Source of the DNA: a virus
Direction: 5' to 3' (one strand)
Length of the DNA stretch: 63,070 bases
Virus record (IMG/VR): IMGVR_UViG_3300031673_000034
Coordinates: 1 to 63,070 of that record
This document shows, one piece after another, positions 29,625-52,968 of this stretch. The position numbers and the translations under genes are program-made. Position 1 is the stretch's first letter. Every line of letters begins with the position of its first letter. The notes below the pieces were generated by a model that was not told the origin of the DNA, ran no database searches, and worked only from the letters and a program-made list of their open reading frames with translations.

Positions 29625-29696
29625 AGCTTCTACAAAGAATCGAACTCTGTTCTCTGGAGTACAAATCCAGTGCATCACCATTTATGCTTTAGAAGC
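29625..29696 (-). tRNA. tRNA-Thr (anticodon UGU)
   Basis: On the minus strand a 7-bp acceptor stem GCTTCTA/TAGAAGC is perfect. The D arm is GCAT/ATGC, the anticodon arm CTGGA/TCCAG with loop TTTGTAC (anticodon TGU), and the T arm has loop TTCGATT. CCA is not encoded. It lies between a terminator and a 134-residue gene on the same strand. Confidence 0.9.
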
Positions 29697-47097: not shown

Positions 47098-47334
47098 ATG
47101 GAAAAACTAGAATTTGTATATGAGTTTCTTTATAATTCAGATTGTCATGATAGTGCAGCAACTACTATAAGTATTCACAAAACAAAGAAAGGTGCTGAAA
47201 TGGCTATGGAATTTCACAAGGCTGAAAAACTAAAAGAGTGGGAAAATGAATGCAAAGAATATCCTCCTGCAAAAGAATATCCATTTGATTATGATCAATG
47301 GTGGGAAGTTCATGAATGCGAGTTACTTCCTTAA
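47098..47334 (+). CDS. Hypothetical protein, first ORF of the cassette array
   Basis: 78 residues (MEKLEFVYEFLYNSDCHDSA..., WWEVHECELLP). It ends just before attC-like site 1. No attC-like site precedes it, so it is either the first cassette or a resident phage gene at the insertion point. Function unknown. Confidence 0.6.
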   Translation: MEKLEFVYEFLYNSDCHDSAATTISIHKTKKGAEMAMEFHKAEKLKEWENECKEYPPAKEYPFDYDQWWEVHECELLP

Positions 47335-47340
47335 TATTGG

Positions 47341-47474
47341 TGCTAACGGCTGGCGGTATGCGGTCGTTGCCGATTTATCAAATTAGTAATAACTTAAATA
47401 CGAGGACAAAACTATGAACACAGAAAAAAGTATCAATGAAGCGGAAGGCAATGCCGTATTACCGCTTGTTATAA
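47341..47474 (+). repeat. attC-like site 1
   Basis: R''-like GCTAAC at 47342 and R'-like GTTATAA at 47468. The arms GCGGTATGCGGTCGTTGCC (47353-47371) and 47447-47465 are near complementary. The ATG of the 47414 ORF lies between the arms. Confidence 0.75.
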
Positions 47475-47632
47475 ACTGGGCGTTTTTCCCAGAAGATAAA
47501 CCCAACTACGGTGATGAAATATTAATTTATCCACCACCTGAACAACTTGCAAAGAAAGAAGTGTTGATTTACGGGCGATATACTGACCTTATAGACGGTA
47601 CAAAATGGGCGTTGCTTACGCCTTGTTTATAA
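47414..47632 (+). CDS. Cassette ORF 2, hypothetical
   Basis: 72 residues (MNTEKSINEAEGNAVLPLVI..., DLIDGTKWALLTPCL). It starts inside site 1 and its TAA is part of the R'' box of site 2. No family recognised; its codon use is richer in GC than that of the phage genes. Confidence 0.6.
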   Translation: MNTEKSINEAEGNAVLPLVINWAFFPEDKPNYGDEILIYPPPEQLAKKEVLIYGRYTDLIDGTKWALLTPCL

Positions 47633-47727
47633 CGGCTGGCGGTATGGTTTAGTAAAGGCTGACCACTACCGACCAATCAAAGAATAAAACTTAATTCAGC
47701 CTTTATTAACTATACCGCTTGTTAGCG
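47627..47727 (+). repeat. attC-like site 2
   Basis: R'' TTATAAC, R' GTTAGCG (47721-47727). The arms GCGGTATGGTTTAGTAAAGG.. (47639-47662) and 47696-47718 pair almost perfectly over ~23 bp. This is the clearest classical-looking site. Confidence 0.85.
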
Positions 47728-47765
47728 TTTCGTTTTGAGCGTGGGCGGTGCAAAACTTAAATAAA

Positions 47766-47939
47766 ATGGAAGCAACACATCAAGTATTAGATTTGGTTTA
47801 TACACCAGACGAAGGACAAGAATGCTTTGAAGGAACAGAGCAAGAATGTTATGATTTTATACAGCAACAAGGTGGAGCAACTTTTATGTATAAAGTAGTT
47901 CCGATTGTGCGTAAGAGTGCGTTGGCAAATGAACGCTAA
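47766..47939 (+). CDS. Cassette ORF 3, hypothetical
   Basis: 57 residues from the ATG at 47766 (MEATHQVLDLVYTPDEGQEC...). Its cassette begins TTAGCGTT and ends AACGCTAA, exact complements as expected for one circular cassette. Function unknown. Confidence 0.6.
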   Translation: MEATHQVLDLVYTPDEGQECFEGTEQECYDFIQQQGGATFMYKVVPIVRKSALANER

Positions 47940-48065
47940 CGGCTCAGATAAGATACGTTGCGATTTAGAATTACAAATTTTCAAACTAAAAATAATATTG
48001 ATATGAAACAGAAAACCAATAAATTAACACAATTTAAGCAATGGATTTTATCTATTGTTACCACC
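47934..48065 (+). repeat. attC-like site 3
   Basis: R'' CGCTAAC (47934-47940), R' GTTACCACC (48057-48065). Arms include AGATAAGAT / ATTTTATCT. The start of ORF 4 is inside. Confidence 0.7.
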
Positions 48066-48287
48066 CGTTTATTCTATTTCGAGAAAACACAAAGCAGCGT
48101 AGATTGGTATTTATGGTATTATAAGATAAAACGTAGGACACCTGTACAGGATGAAGAAAAACGTGGTAAATACAAAGAAGTATCGTTAATAAATTACAGG
48201 CGTTCCTTTATGAAAGGATATGCTTATATAACGATAACTTTTTTCCATTACATTACAATAAACATAGACTTGCACCGCCCTCTTTAA
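48003..48287 (+). CDS. Cassette ORF 4, hypothetical
   Basis: 94 residues from the ATG at 48003, basic and aromatic (SVDWYLWYYKIKRRTPV), with a hydrophobic C-terminal segment (YAYITITFFHYITINI) that may span a membrane. Confidence 0.55.
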   Translation: MKQKTNKLTQFKQWILSIVTTRLFYFEKTQSSVDWYLWYYKIKRRTPVQDEEKRGKYKEVSLINYRRSFMKGYAYITITFFHYITINIDLHRPL

Positions 48288-48290
48288 ATG

Positions 48291-48423
48291 GGTGGTAACG
48301 TTGAATGTAAGGTGTCGTGGCGGATTTAAGACCACAAAACTATCAAACTAAACAAAAATAAAAAGGTAAAATAAATGTTAAACCACGCACAAAACCGCCA
48401 TTAACTATACATATTGTTAGGCG
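48291..48423 (+). repeat. attC-like site 4
   Basis: R'' GGTGGTAAC (matches this cassette's TTACCACC start), R' GTTAGGC (consensus GTTRRRY). Arms include GTGGCGG / CCGCCA and GAATGTA / TACATATT. Confidence 0.75.
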
Positions 48424-48446
48424 TATGTGCTTTAATTCAAATTGTT

Positions 48447-48626
48447 ATGAAAACAGAAAGAGAAATAAAGATTGAAATTAAAGACCAAGAGTTATTGGCT
48501 GAAAAACTTAACAAAGAACTATGTAACATGAGCCAAATGGCAAGTATTGAATATGGAGACAAAGTTCAAAATAGAATGAATATTGCCAACGGTAAAGTAG
48601 AAGCTTTAAAGTGGATGCTTTCTTAG
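48447..48626 (+). CDS. Cassette ORF 5, hypothetical
   Basis: 59 residues from the ATG at 48447, helical (REIKIEIKDQELLAEKLNKE...). Its cassette begins TTAGGC and ends GCCTAA. Unknown function. Confidence 0.6.
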   Translation: MKTEREIKIEIKDQELLAEKLNKELCNMSQMASIEYGDKVQNRMNIANGKVEALKWMLS

Positions 48627-48630
48627 CATT

Positions 48631-48759
48631 ACGCCTAACGGATACGTGTATAGCACATTGCTTACACAAAACTTTAATAGAATTACAAACTTTAAAATAT
48701 ATTAAAAATGGAAAATGCGAAGAACGAAAAGCAATGTGCTATACACGATGTTATACGCT
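48631..48759 (+). repeat. attC-like site 5
   Basis: R'' GCCTAAC (48633-48639), R' GTTATACGC. The arms CGTGTATAGCACATTGCTT (48645-48663) and 48729-48747 are perfectly complementary over 19 bp although the 3' arm is coding sequence of ORF 6. Confidence 0.85.
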
Positions 48760-48920
48760 GTACTTTCAATGATTCTATCAACGAAAGAAAAGTAATATTC
48801 CATAGTGATGCACCACAAGCAACGATTGATGCACTGGAATTTAATGGTGAATGGTATGTAGTTAAAGAAATATTACTTGACTGGGGTTATAAGGTAATTG
48901 AACATCCGATTGTCAATTAG
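48708..48920 (+). CDS. Cassette ORF 6, hypothetical
   Basis: 70 residues. The first ~17 codons lie inside the palindrome of site 5, so this N-terminus is fixed by the recombination site. The rest (ERKVIFHSDAPQATIDALEF...WYVVKEILLDWGYKVIE) is a small alpha/beta domain. Confidence 0.65.
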   Translation: MENAKNEKQCAIHDVIRCTFNDSINERKVIFHSDAPQATIDALEFNGEWYVVKEILLDWGYKVIEHPIVN

Positions 48921-48923
48921 TAT

Positions 48924-49056
48924 AGCGTATAACGTTAAAAATATGAAATGTACGGGATTAAAAGCGGTATCCTATCCCGATACACAACACTTGATTAAAG
49001 GTAATACCGTTCAAACACGCACAATACCCGTATATTTTATATTTAGTGTTATGGGC
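48924..49056 (+). repeat. attC-like site 6
   Basis: R'' AGCGTATAAC (complement of its cassette's TTATACGCT start), R' GTTATGGGC. Arms AAATATGAAATGTACGGG / CCCGTATATTTTATATTT. Confidence 0.8.
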
Positions 49057-49082
49057 TGGCGTTTATAATAGGAGGGCTTAAT

Positions 49083-49253
49083 ATGCCAAAAGATGAATGG
49101 GGAAACATTGTTTCCGAAGCCGAATATTACGGCAGAGATACTGATTTTTACACATCAAAAGATGAGTGGGGGAATATCGTTGATAGGAACTCGGATGGGG
49201 TGGAAAGAAGTATAGATGAAAACGGTGATGTAAAATACACAGATACCAAGTAA
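49083..49253 (+). CDS. Cassette ORF 7, internally duplicated small protein
   Basis: 56 residues with two copies of the unit KDEWGNIV (residues 3-10 and 29-36) followed by SEAEYYGR or DRNSDG. A purine-rich AGGAGGG precedes the ATG, unlike the phage genes. Function unknown. Confidence 0.6.
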   Translation: MPKDEWGNIVSEAEYYGRDTDFYTSKDEWGNIVDRNSDGVERSIDENGDVKYTDTK

Positions 49254-49286
49254 TTTAAACAGGTGAGCGTGGGATTTCTTACACTT

Positions 49287-49320
49287 GCCCATGACGTGCC
49301 GCAGCTAAACGCTGTTGGCG
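49287..49320 (+). repeat. attC-like site 7 (short form)
   Basis: Only ~34 nt: R'' GCCCATGAC (matches its cassette's TTATGGGC start), then GCCGCAGC / GCTGTTGGC hairpin, R' GTTGGCG. Much shorter than the ~100-133-nt sites around it. Confidence 0.55.
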
Positions 49321-49359
49321 ATTTGAAACGCAATTTATCAACATGAAAATAAAGTAACA

Positions 49360-49617
49360 ATGGAACACGAAAATTTGAATACAGAAGAAACCGCCAATAG
49401 CGATTTAGGTGCTGTTATGGGCAGTTATAATGATGGAATTTTATTTGGAATACGCAACTGCAATGCTGAATTTCAGGTAATACTCCAAGAAATATACACT
49501 GAATTTAACAACCTGAAAAGAATCAACAAGGGGGATATTGTTAAAATTTTAATGAAGCATAGCAGTAAAGAACTTGGCGAAGATGTCAATCCATTTTTGG
49601 AAGAAGCGTCTGAATAA
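49360..49617 (+). CDS. Cassette ORF 8, hypothetical
   Basis: 85 residues, acidic and helical (NTEETANSDLGAVMGSYNDG...LQEIYTEFNNLKRINKGDIV). No family recognised. Confidence 0.6.
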   Translation: MEHENLNTEETANSDLGAVMGSYNDGILFGIRNCNAEFQVILQEIYTEFNNLKRINKGDIVKILMKHSSKELGEDVNPFLEEASE

Positions 49618-49619
49618 TT

Positions 49620-49741
49620 GCGCATAACGGCTGAGTATATGGTGCGTTGCATCACAAATATTAATTAAAATACAAAAGATTATGATTTACGAAGATGATA
49701 AATTGAAACAAGACAGCAATGCACTATATACTTTGTTAGAG
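49620..49741 (+). repeat. attC-like site 8
   Basis: R'' GCGCATAAC, R' GTTAGAG. Arms GTATATGGTGCGTTGC / GCAATGCACTATATAC pair with two G-U positions; the 3' arm is coding for ORF 9. Confidence 0.8.
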
Positions 49742-49882
49742 TGCGTTGATAAAGAAATTAACTTTAACGCATTGTTAGATAAATATGGACCAGAAGGTTT
49801 ATATATGATTGCTGATAAGTTAAAAGAACTTGCTGATGAGGATATGAGAAATGCGTTAGACCAATGCAATAATGCCCTATAA
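49682..49882 (+). CDS. Cassette ORF 9, hypothetical
   Basis: 66 residues, helical (LLECVDKEINFNALLDKYGP...LADEDMRNALDQCNNAL). Its first ~18 codons overlap site 8. It resembles the 113-residue phage protein at 51386 in the short stretch INFNALLDKYGPEG versus INFDALTEFETEE, which may be chance. Confidence 0.6.
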   Translation: MIYEDDKLKQDSNALYTLLECVDKEINFNALLDKYGPEGLYMIADKLKELADEDMRNALDQCNNAL

Positions 49883-50005
49883 CGTTGAGTATAAGAAACG
49901 TAGCGTTTTGAAATACTGAACAACAATAACTTACAAATGTAAAATTGAAATAGAAACTTAATATTAACCACAGGCTCAGCTATGTTTTTTATACATTGTT
50001 ACCGC
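49875..50005 (+). repeat. attC-like site 9
   Basis: R'' CCCTATAAC, R' GTTACCGC. Arms GTATAAGAAACGTAGC / GCTATGTTTTTTATAC pair over 16 bp with two G-U positions. Confidence 0.8.
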
Positions 50006-50022
50006 CCGTTAATTTTGATATC

Positions 50023-50238
50023 ATGATACCAACAGTAAAAGAGACTAAAGATATGTACGAAAATACAGGTGTGTACGAACGCTGCTACTTTTGCAAGCAA
50101 CCTACCAATACTTGGCATTGGAGAACAAACCAACCAGTATGCACCGACTGTGCAAAAACGCACAAAGAAGAACTCAAAAGATGTGCCGATTCAAACGCAT
50201 GGGTTGAAACGTTGCTCGGTTCTTTAGCTTGCGTATAA
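50023..50238 (+). CDS. Cassette ORF 10, zinc-finger-like protein
   Basis: 71 residues from the ATG at 50023. CYFC and CTDC (about 23 residues apart, with HWRTNQPV between) form a probable zinc-binding treble-clef or ribbon. The only cassette product with a recognisable structural motif. Confidence 0.65.
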   Translation: MIPTVKETKDMYENTGVYERCYFCKQPTNTWHWRTNQPVCTDCAKTHKEELKRCADSNAWVETLLGSLACV

Positions 50239-50362
50239 CGATTACAGATAAACACAGTTGCGAATTTAATAAACAAAATTATGATAACAGAAGACGATTA
50301 TAAAAAAGCACAAACCACAATAGATGAATACAACAAGCAATTGTTTTTATCTGGTGTTAGCG
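50231..50362 (+). repeat. attC-like site 10
   Basis: R'' GCGTATAAC, R' GTTAGCG. Arms CAGATAAACACAGTTGC / GCAATTGTTTTTATCTG. Confidence 0.8.
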
Positions 50363-50490
50363 ATATGTTGCTACAAAAAGAAGCAATAGATTTCGTTATG
50401 TGGTGTAAAAATAATAGTGAATTTGTGTATCAGTACGAATGTAATAGACATTACAACGAAATATTGTACGCAAAGTTTAAAAGCAATTAA
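50281..50490 (+). CDS. Cassette ORF 11, hypothetical
   Basis: 69 residues, helical (TEDDYKKAQTTIDEYNKQLF). Its cassette begins TTAGCG and ends CGCTAA. The first ~25 codons lie in site 10. Confidence 0.6.
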   Translation: MITEDDYKKAQTTIDEYNKQLFLSGVSDMLLQKEAIDFVMWCKNNSEFVYQYECNRHYNEILYAKFKSN

Positions 50491-50623
50491 CGCTAACGTT
50501 ATTATAAGAATAGTAGCAGCTTTGAAACTGACACTTTGAAATAATTACAAACTTAAATACAGCGGTAGCAGCTAACAAGTACCACATAACCTGCTATTAT
50601 TTTTTATAAATTGTTATGTGGCG
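50491..50623 (+). repeat. attC-like site 11
   Basis: R'' CGCTAAC (50491-50497), R' GTTATGTGGC. Arms TTATAAGAATAGTAGCAG / CTGCTATTATTTTTTATAA. Confidence 0.8.
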
Positions 50624-50632
50624 TTATTAATT

Positions 50633-50788
50633 ATGAACAATAAATATAAAATTACAGTAGAAGCACCATTATTACGTGCAGGAATTAGGTTAGAAACAAC
50701 TTGTAGTGAAAAGTATGTGCCAAAGGTTATGGAAAAGATTATGGAAATGGTGCGTGAAATAAATACACCGAAGCCTAATGCCACATAA
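50633..50788 (+). CDS. Cassette ORF 12, hypothetical
   Basis: 51 residues (MNNKYKITVEAPLLRAGIRL..., VMEKIMEMVREINTPKPNAT). Its cassette begins TTATGTGGC and ends GCCACATAA, a 9-nt exact complement. Confidence 0.55.
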   Translation: MNNKYKITVEAPLLRAGIRLETTCSEKYVPKVMEKIMEMVREINTPKPNAT

Positions 50789-50789
50789 C
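50780..50789 (+). repeat. attC-like half site 12 (array end)
   Basis: R''-type GCCACATAAC closes the last cassette, but no matching arm and R' box follow clearly. A weak TAATGT/ACATTA hairpin lies just downstream. Confidence 0.5.
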
Positions 50790-51794: not shown

Positions 51795-51900
51795 ACTACC
51801 CACCCACGCCAAAGGCGATGGGTTTGGCTTCAAGAGTCATTACTCCTACTAATGTAGGCAGTTCGTCTTGACTTTTAAGTCTGTGTTCCCCAGACAAAAT
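51782..51900 (-). ncRNA. Probable omega-RNA region of tnpB
   Basis: In the IS200/IS605 family the guide RNA scaffold comes from the 3' end of tnpB and the right end of the element. Here that region holds the CCCACGCC/GGCGATGGG hairpin. The guide would be the ~16-20 nt just outside, around 51765-51781. Inferred from family knowledge. Confidence 0.45.
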
Positions 51901-52968
51901 ATTTTTTAAAGCAAATGATTTTATGTTACAAGCAGCATTAACATCTCGGTCTAAAACAGTAGAACAACTGCCACAAGTCCATTCACGGTCTTTTAGTTGT
52001 AGTTCATTGTTGATAGCCCCACAGTTTGAACAAGTTTTTGAAGATGGTGCAAATTGTCCTATTCGTAGGATATTTTTACCATACCAACCAGCTTTATATT
52101 CCAACATAGAAACAAAAGTTGACCAACTTACATCATTAATTGCTTGTGCTAAATTGTGGTTTTTAACCATATTTTTAACCGCTAAAGTTTCAAGGGCTAT
52201 CGTTTGGTTCTCACGAATTAATTTAGTTGAAACTTTGTGTAAAAAATCTTTGCGTTTGTTTACTACATCTTCATGTAATTTGGCAAGTTTCTTTTTAGTT
52301 CGCTTGCCTTTGTGTTTTGAGTATTTACGTTGTACATATTTTAATTTACTTTGTGCTTTACGAAGAAATTTAGGATTATCAAATACCTCTCCATCTGAGG
52401 TAATGGCAAAGTCTTTTATTCCAAGGTCAATACCTATTGTGGTGTTTTCATTAATAGAAACCTTAATTGGCATATCTTCTTTAGTATCACAAAGTATTGA
52501 CACGAAGTATTTACCTGTAGGTGTTACACTGATAGTTCCACTTTTTACAATACCTTGTGTAGGTTTATGTAAAAATATTTTAATACCCTCTTTAAACTTT
52601 GGTATTATCAAAAGATTATTTTCAACTATTACATTTTGTGGTATTGAAAAAGATTGTCTATCTCTTTTAGACTTAAATTTTGGAAAACCAGCTCCTTTAA
52701 AGAATTTCTTAAAAGCAATATCCATATTTTGTATAGATTGTTGTAAGCTTTGTGAGTTTACTTCTTTTAGCCAAGGACATTCTTTTTTAAGTTCTGGTAA
52801 TTGTTTAATTAAATCGAAAGGGCTGTAGTTATGTTTGTTACCAATATATGCAGCGTTTTTAGTTTCCAACGCAAGATTAAACACAAAACGACTACTACCA
52901 ATATGTTTGGCAATAAGCTCTTTTTGTGGCTCGGTTGGGTAAATTCTGTATTTGAACGATTTAAACAT
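51796..52968 (-). CDS. tnpB: TnpB RNA-guided nuclease
   Basis: 390 residues, full length for the family. RuvC-I GIDLGIKDFA (D181), RuvC-II ALETLAVKN (E260), zinc finger C313/C316 and C332/C335, RuvC-III LDRDVNAACN (D342) are all present, so it looks catalytically intact. The N-terminus FKSFKYRIYPTEPQKELI is the usual helix-turn-helix start. Higher GC and opposite orientation mark it as acquired. Confidence 0.9.
   Translation of the reverse strand: MFKSFKYRIYPTEPQKELIAKHIGSSRFVFNLALETKNAAYIGNKHNYSPFDLIKQLPELKKECPWLKEVNSQSLQQSIQNMDIAFKKFFKGAGFPKFKSKRDRQSFSIPQNVIVENNLLIIPKFKEGIKIFLHKPTQGIVKSGTISVTPTGKYFVSILCDTKEDMPIKVSINENTTIGIDLGIKDFAITSDGEVFDNPKFLRKAQSKLKYVQRKYSKHKGKRTKKKLAKLHEDVVNKRKDFLHKVSTKLIRENQTIALETLAVKNMVKNHNLAQAINDVSWSTFVSMLEYKAGWYGKNILRIGQFAPSSKTCSNCGAINNELQLKDREWTCGSCSTVLDRDVNAACNIKSFALKNILSGEHRLKSQDELPTLVGVMTLEAKPIAFGVGG

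Follow-up and report, generated by a model that had tools for sequence, protein, structure and literature searches.

The window analysed here, which is the whole of the 63,070-nucleotide IMG/VR virus record IMGVR_UViG_3300031673_000034, carries between positions 47098 and 50788 an array of twelve short open reading frames (ORFs), every one of them on the plus strand. Eleven near-palindromic sites alternate with the ORFs; each is 101-134 nt long and has ends that read AAC...GTTA. The ..AACG end of each site lies at or near the stop codon of the preceding ORF, the ..GTTA end lies within or before the next ORF, and a single unpaired box terminates the array at 50789. A preliminary description of this DNA had reported twelve ORFs on one strand with eleven palindromic, attC-like sites and a half site; the ORF list, a palindrome scan and a covariance model bear out the ORFs and the eleven sites, while the supposed half site is the free end of the last cassette. 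In a simple palindrome scan 8 of the 11 sites reach the threshold within 6 kb, as compared with a single match when nine other 6-kb blocks of the window are scanned on both strands. The GTTA box is present in all eleven sites (11/11), and the strict form GTTRRRY in only one (1/11). As the preliminary description had claimed, the cassettes are richer in GC than the phage, with 34.4% in the array against 26-27% in the flanks.

Of the twelve cassettes, eleven are complete and one, ORF1, is a remnant fixed in place. The features are listed below, with R1 and R2 denoting bit scores from two covariance models, of which R2 is independent of the window sites.

47098-47334, plus strand: ORF1, 78 aa, remnant cassette; the gene body is kept, its own attC and attC-encoded N-terminus are lost, and phage sequence stands instead (scar ~47098-47112)
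47341-47474, plus strand: s1, attC-type site, attC of cassette 2; holds the ORF2 start codon; R1 80.8 bits, independent R2 34.7 bits
47414-47632, plus strand: ORF2, 72 aa; ATG within s1, the site encoding the first 18 residues
47627-47727, plus strand: s2, attC-type site of the short class, attC of cassette 3; copies 92-96% identical in other phage contigs
47766-47939, plus strand: ORF3, 57 aa; start lies after s2
47934-48063, plus strand: s3, attC-type site; holds the ORF4 start codon
48003-48287, plus strand: ORF4, 94 aa; ATG within s3, 18 site-encoded residues
48293-48422, plus strand: s4, attC-type site; R1 101 bits, R2 50 bits
48447-48626, plus strand: ORF5, 59 aa; start lies after s4
48633-48756, plus strand: s5, attC-type site with a perfect 19-bp stem; holds the ORF6 start codon
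48708-48920, plus strand: ORF6, 70 aa; ATG within s5, 14 site-encoded residues
48927-49054, plus strand: s6, attC-type site; R1 94 bits, R2 61 bits
49083-49253, plus strand: ORF7, 56 aa; start lies after s6
49289-49420, plus strand: s7, attC-type site; holds the ORF8 start codon
49360-49617, plus strand: ORF8, 85 aa; ATG within s7
49622-49741, plus strand: s8, attC-type site; holds the ORF9 start codon
49682-49882, plus strand: ORF9, 66 aa; ATG within s8
49877-50004, plus strand: s9, attC-type site
50023-50238, plus strand: ORF10, 71 aa, with a CxxC...CxxC motif; start lies after s9; the sole cassette with non-matching own R boxes (2/8)
50233-50362, plus strand: s10, attC-type site; holds the ORF11 start codon
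50281-50490, plus strand: ORF11, 69 aa; ATG within s10, 25 site-encoded residues
50491-50619, plus strand: s11, attC-type site, attC of cassette 12
50633-50788, plus strand: ORF12, 51 aa; start lies after s11
50780-50789, plus strand: free end of cassette 12, GCCACATAAC; complements its own R' box at 50613 and forms the right array boundary; no model match

In order to avoid circularity, the second covariance model was built from 30 bacterial chromosomal sites only, some of them adjacent to genes for the integron integrase IntI and none of them from the window. When the full 63 kb was searched with this bacterial-only model, exactly the eleven window sites were recovered, all on the plus strand and with E-values from 1.1e-12 to 2.4e-6, and no further match appeared in the window up to E = 10; the attC model search that the preliminary description had proposed as a check gives strong matches at 11 of 11 sites. 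Across 43 sites of the window-site family (eleven of them from the window) there are compensatory changes at all fourteen predicted stem pairs, in keeping with the attC plan of outer R'' (..AAC) and R' (GTT..) boxes around inner L boxes. An Rfam scan gave no match at the array. Similar DNA was found in no plasmid, and the sole match is in a huge phage, where an 80-bp stretch (L039; LR756500.1, a 462 kb uncultured phage, 49018-49097) is 80% identical to the interior of s7 and the model detects no full site.

An integron cassette inserts as a circle, and hence its two end boxes match each other and not the box across the same site. When the R' box of site k is compared with the R'' box of site k+1, 63 of 80 positions match beyond the fixed GTT, versus 27 when it is compared with the R'' box of its own site, and the 63 own-cassette matches were reached in 0 of 100,000 permutations (that run missed site 9, which counted as zero throughout; its corrected value is 2/8). 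Nine of the ten scored intervals match at 5-7 of 8 positions and only cassette 10 fails; long pairs such as GTTACCACCCG with CGGGTGGTAAC-like ends are seen at 48057 and 48299. Other phage arrays, and bacterial ones too, show the same own-cassette pairing. The sites are therefore the true ends of cassettes. Cassette 10 itself (49998-50239), the sole one with mismatched R boxes, may be a hybrid of two cassettes.

A search of the window with PF00589 found no tyrosine recombinase. With two or more attC-type sites and no IntI nearby, the array is not a complete integron, which would have an IntI gene and attI beside its cassettes, but a cluster of attC sites without integrase (CALIN), as the preliminary description had proposed; the claim now stands on the bacterial-model matches, the pairing across cassettes and the lack of an integrase on the contig.

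The preliminary description had placed R'' boxes at stop codons and R' boxes near the next start, so that a cassette would consist of an ORF and the site that follows it. We compared arrays in different contigs that have one site in common (59 phage-type matches). Homology extends more than 20 nt to the left of AAC in 0 of 59 cases, and more than 20 nt past GTT in 23 of 59; two of these arrays (L038 and L050) have one whole 502-bp cassette in common, from AAC to the next AAC. The homology breakpoints place the crossover at AA|C on the plus strand (G|TT on the minus strand), in the box just past each stop codon. The plus strand also folds better than the minus strand, in 82 of 98 phage-type sites (p = 1.7e-10) and in 75 of 82 chromosomal sites. 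In phage-type sites, arm mismatches form G.T pairs 182 times on the plus strand versus 21 on the minus strand; the corresponding counts for chromosomal sites are 142 and 62.

The Bacteroidota chromosomes, in which the preliminary description had suggested looking for the sites, contain sites of the same architecture beside IntI genes. In nine bacterial loci an IntI gene has the sites on its 5' side, all in a single consistent polarity: when IntI is on the plus strand the sites match the model on the plus strand and to its left, and when IntI is on the minus strand the arrangement is the mirror image. The genes in eight of the nine loci point away from IntI, which is the usual way. The strand matched by the bacterial model is the same as that of the ORFs at window sites, and opposite to that of the genes at chromosomal sites. 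From the breakpoints, the folding strand, the IntI-adjacent arrays and the strand of the model matches together, we therefore conclude that the recombining unit in the phage is a site with the ORF that follows it, which reverses the polarity given in the preliminary description. As read from its sequence, the phage cassette is an attC with one small ORF downstream, attC standing at the 5' end of every cassette in the window. The window ORFs are inverted relative to normal cassettes, in which attC stands 3' of the gene. The idea that six ORFs receive their N-terminus from the upstream cassette, which followed from the earlier polarity, was dropped, as the breakpoints assign each site to its ORF. 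In one bacterial locus (L136; G009:C1:1199000-1218900) an IntI gene lies between two family sites and shares the direction of the cassette genes, whereas the usual layout is divergent.

This polarity brings the recombination site to the beginning of the gene. In six of the eleven complete cassettes (ORFs 2, 4, 6, 8, 9 and 11) the predicted start lies within the cassette's own attC, in its loop, with a leader of 14-25 residues, and in the other five (ORFs 3, 5, 7, 10 and 12) it lies just past it. A site contains the start of an ORF that continues past GTT in 34 of 65 long phage sites versus 6 of 80 chromosomal sites, and 30 of 66 bounded phage cassettes start inside the site, mostly with 13-23 site-encoded residues. 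In methyltransferase cassettes of other phages the conserved catalytic domain begins directly past the site and the leader is encoded by the site; in one C5 methyltransferase, MTELNNIPELEANTNTAIDYSTC comes from the site and is followed by YRQYGINVLSLFDGMSCG. It thus seems that a leader peptide is translated from the right arm of attC.

ORF1 illustrates what remains when a cassette gene loses its site. Its residues 6-78 are 82-85% identical to ORFs of three other phage contigs (L209, L210 and L211), where the homologs are complete cassettes with their own attC (model scores of 88, 65 and 92 bits, respectively). The start of the homolog lies within its own attC clearly in L209 and L211; L210 has no ATG there, a TTG being possible. 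Each homolog is followed by a different next site, joined at a GTGCTAA|C box that is clear in the window, L209 and L211 and diverged in L210. The window copy lacks both the site and the first codons; its gene begins instead with the phage sequence MEKLE, joined at residue 6. ORF1 is a cassette gene without its site, now fixed in place. Its structure model is of moderate confidence (predicted local distance difference test score, pLDDT, of 70) with a beta-beta-alpha-beta fold, and the predicted structure has no match in the PDB.

The contig that carries the array encodes major head, portal and terminase proteins which match phage families (PHROGs for portal and terminase), and the major head protein matches those of crAss-like phages over its full length with 29-33% identity. 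The window is reproduced, with three mismatches in 44 kb (99.99% identical), by a contig of 95,689 bp (IMGVR_UViG_3300031578_000009), whose ends overlap by 127 bp. This overlap points to a closed genome of ~95.6 kb that includes the array, a size near the 97 kb expected for Crassvirales. The claim that a phage carries the array is upheld by these head, portal and terminase genes and by the array-bearing copy, and on protein similarity the predicted carrier is a crAss-like phage (Crassvirales) of Bacteroidota. The preliminary description had reasoned that cassettes would be called into question by a lack of model matches together with an unchanged set and order of ORFs in related phages; the order is the same only in the 99.99% identical copy of the same phage, and ORF1 lies beside different sites in three contigs. 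A search with the helicase retrieved just the identical phage and relatives at 33% that have no sites, so no empty insertion site was available for comparison. About 1 kb to the right of the array, a 390-aa ORF (51796-52968, minus strand) looks by eye like a TnpB-type protein (IS200/IS605 OrfB) and is on the strand opposite to its neighbours. The window also has two tRNA genes (Rfam RF00005), at 39255-39328 (plus) and 29625-29696 (minus).

Similar arrays are found in other phages. A motif taken from s1 and s2, TAACGGCTGGCGGTATG, matches 38 IMG/VR stretches, most of which bear model-like sites, and in 396 Bacteroidota genomes it has one match, on a phage-looking contig of a metagenome-assembled genome. 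Ten contigs with arrays were examined at length. Seven array contigs other than the window phage (G403, G408, G409, G412, G417, G420 and G002:C57) have head, portal or terminase genes, which belong to different families. Among eleven contigs, two of them copies of the window phage, no protein of at least 100 aa occurs in four or more; the arrays have therefore not been inherited from one phage ancestor. The cultured Polaribacter phage P12002L shows the same inverted layout, with methyltransferase genes. Two virus records (G401 and G404) have two site clusters each, near the contig ends and on opposite strands. In the reverse direction, two k-mers from chromosomal sites match only five viral contigs, where the two scorable sites have normal polarity, and one class-B motif search of the viral contigs gave no match.

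The genes carried by the two kinds of cassette differ. Chromosomal cassettes near family sites encode largely defence functions (AIPR, an Eco57I-type methylase, Shedu, a DndB-like protein, a SMODS-associated 4TM effector, a kinase, a PLD protein and restriction-modification), and inverted cassettes in other phages encode C5, N6/N4 and Dam DNA methyltransferases along with many small proteins without known function. In one chromosomal integron with IntI (L097; G290:C13:160000-177742) the proximal cassettes are inverted and partly duplicated, and one of them encodes a phage-type Dam methyltransferase. The inverted cassette type is not strictly confined to phages, as this locus demonstrates, and the pattern is what traffic between phages and host integrons would leave. 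Many nearly closed Bacteroidota genomes contain attC-like arrays with defence genes and no IntI match.

Several other explanations can be set against this evidence. The array could be an ordinary CALIN of host origin, in which a cassette is an ORF with the attC that follows it, in normal polarity. Stop codons do abut a box, so the layout fits at first sight, and CALINs are already known from phages (PMC9892861). We nevertheless regard this reading as very unlikely, as homology between arrays starts from AAC and continues beyond GTT into the following ORF and in no case runs the other way, strand-specific folding and the IntI-adjacent arrays indicate the opposite polarity, and ORF1 moves with its upstream site. 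That the palindromes are merely intergenic hairpins, such as terminators or regulatory stems, would agree with their position at stop codons; such stems, however, would pair within a site, whereas the outer boxes pair across the cassette. The same sites border unrelated genes in IntI-bearing bacteria, homology breaks at AA|C, and the 17 kb-scale exchange of unrelated cassettes among unrelated phages is unexpected for terminators, which makes the hairpin explanation extremely improbable. The GC content of the array, higher than that of the phage, is what an assembly chimera or contamination from a host chromosome could produce. We give almost no credence to such an artefact, since the second contig repeats the locus and overlaps itself at its ends, like arrays are present in at least seven further contigs that have phage portal, terminase or head genes, and P12002L is a cultured isolate.

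It is harder to decide which enzyme moves the cassettes. A recombinase other than IntI, from phage or host, might recognise the same folded sites, and the distribution of the sites lends this some weight: they occur in 178 of 396 Bacteroidota genomes with no enrichment for IntI, and three quarters of the site-bearing genomes lack a full IntI match. No such enzyme is common to the phages, though, and most of them have no tyrosine recombinase: IntI was sought in 23 virus records and found in none, a search of the 95.7-kb copy with TIGR02249 also found none, 12 of 14 virus records have no tyrosine recombinase, and the search for a recombinase common to the array phages was negative. The G|TT crossover, the R-box rules and the strand asymmetry are traits of IntI substrates, arrays adjacent to IntI share the architecture, and a site of P12002L has been recombined with IntI1 in E. 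coli (PMC9892861). We favour IntI on the strength of these crossover and pairing rules, the architecture of the IntI-adjacent arrays, the scarcity of tyrosine recombinases and the P12002L experiment, and consider a different recombinase unlikely.

Our preferred interpretation, an integron cassette array without integrase in a crAss-like Bacteroidota phage, with inverted ORFs and attC as a 5' module, is in our judgement highly probable. Several observations weigh against it. Across the 396 Bacteroidota genomes, family sites and full-length IntI (the latter in 109 genomes) show no excess of co-occurrence over chance (43 genomes have both; odds ratio 0.69, p = 0.12). Most IntI-adjacent attC sites score weakly with the phage-derived model, the best-scoring Bacteroidota IntI loci (L083-L102) contain nearly no sites of that model, and an integrase fitting the window site family was not found. 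The phage set, in which 108 of 112 sites have inverted ORFs only, was gathered with the window motif, and this ratio consequently describes that site family and not all phages; in the chromosomal set the genes are normal only at 43 sites, inverted only at 8, ambiguous (both) at 16 and unassigned at 16. Neither Pfam nor PHROGs gives any window cassette protein a known function, the active attC2 of P12002L could not be mapped to a particular site, and the use of the ATGs inside attC is a prediction from reading frames.

Under this interpretation, an IntI encoded by the host would act in trans on the folded plus strand while the phage DNA is single-stranded, and cassettes would be inserted, excised and shuffled at AA|C. 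Upstream phage promoters would read the array; we propose phage transcription of the ORFs because the array runs in the direction of the early genes beside it (across arrays, 66 of 80 comparisons with flanking phage genes are co-directional and 14 are not, the phage and its copy both being counted). The attC would then give each gene its translation start and a short leader, and the small cassette proteins may help the phage against host defences.

We tentatively extend this into a broader proposal, towards which we remain slightly more doubtful than confident, that unrelated Bacteroidota phages keep a dedicated pool of inverted cassettes, with attC as a 5' translation and leader module, which host integrases acting in trans would shuffle. 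The pool would include counter-defence genes, methyltransferases among them, set against a host pool of defence cassettes with like sites. If this is true, one recombination machinery would serve opposite ends, host defence cassettes on one side and small or methyltransferase cassettes of phages on the other. Scattered reports of phage attC sites would become a recurrent system with its own gene polarity, for which the likely reason is that the genes are read as part of a phage operon and take their translation start from the recombination site. Small phage ORFs without known function beside such sites would be candidates for counter-defence genes, open to bulk testing. In such arrays, both cassettes and start codons will be misassigned by integron finders and annotators built on a 3' attC.

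Clusters of attC sites without integrase in virulent phages, including P12002L, were published in 2023, so the occurrence of such a cluster in a phage is less novel than the preliminary description had put it. Qi et al. counted 17 phage CALINs and demonstrated recombination of phage attC sites, among them attC2 of P12002L, with IntI1 (PMC9892861). A literature search, for which most subscription journals were out of reach, returned no account of inverted cassettes with the start in attC or of integron cassettes in crAss-like phages. What is new here is the inverted start-in-attC cassette type, its bias towards phages and the crAss-like carrier; integrase-less phage attC clusters were already known.

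The published phage CALINs resemble the window array in being integrase-less attC clusters of lytic phages, with methyltransferase cassettes and an example from Bacteroidota, but they have few sites per phage and their directions were called normal or 'divergent' (PMC9892861), whereas the window has eleven sites in a crAss-like phage. The rule of inverted ORFs with the start in attC also fits P12002L. The sedentary chromosomal integrons of Bacteroidota have the same site architecture, crossover and R-box rules as the window array. Their cassettes contain larger genes in normal polarity, several of them for defence, whereas those of the phages, which have no IntI, are small and inverted. In class 1 integrons, DNA of the recombination site likewise supplies translation signals, through the attI1-encoded ORF-11 and through fused cassettes (PMC8876359; PMC4670013). 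There the signal lies in attI or arises from the loss of attC and couples translation to the next gene, whereas in the window the predicted start and leader lie in the cassette's own attC.

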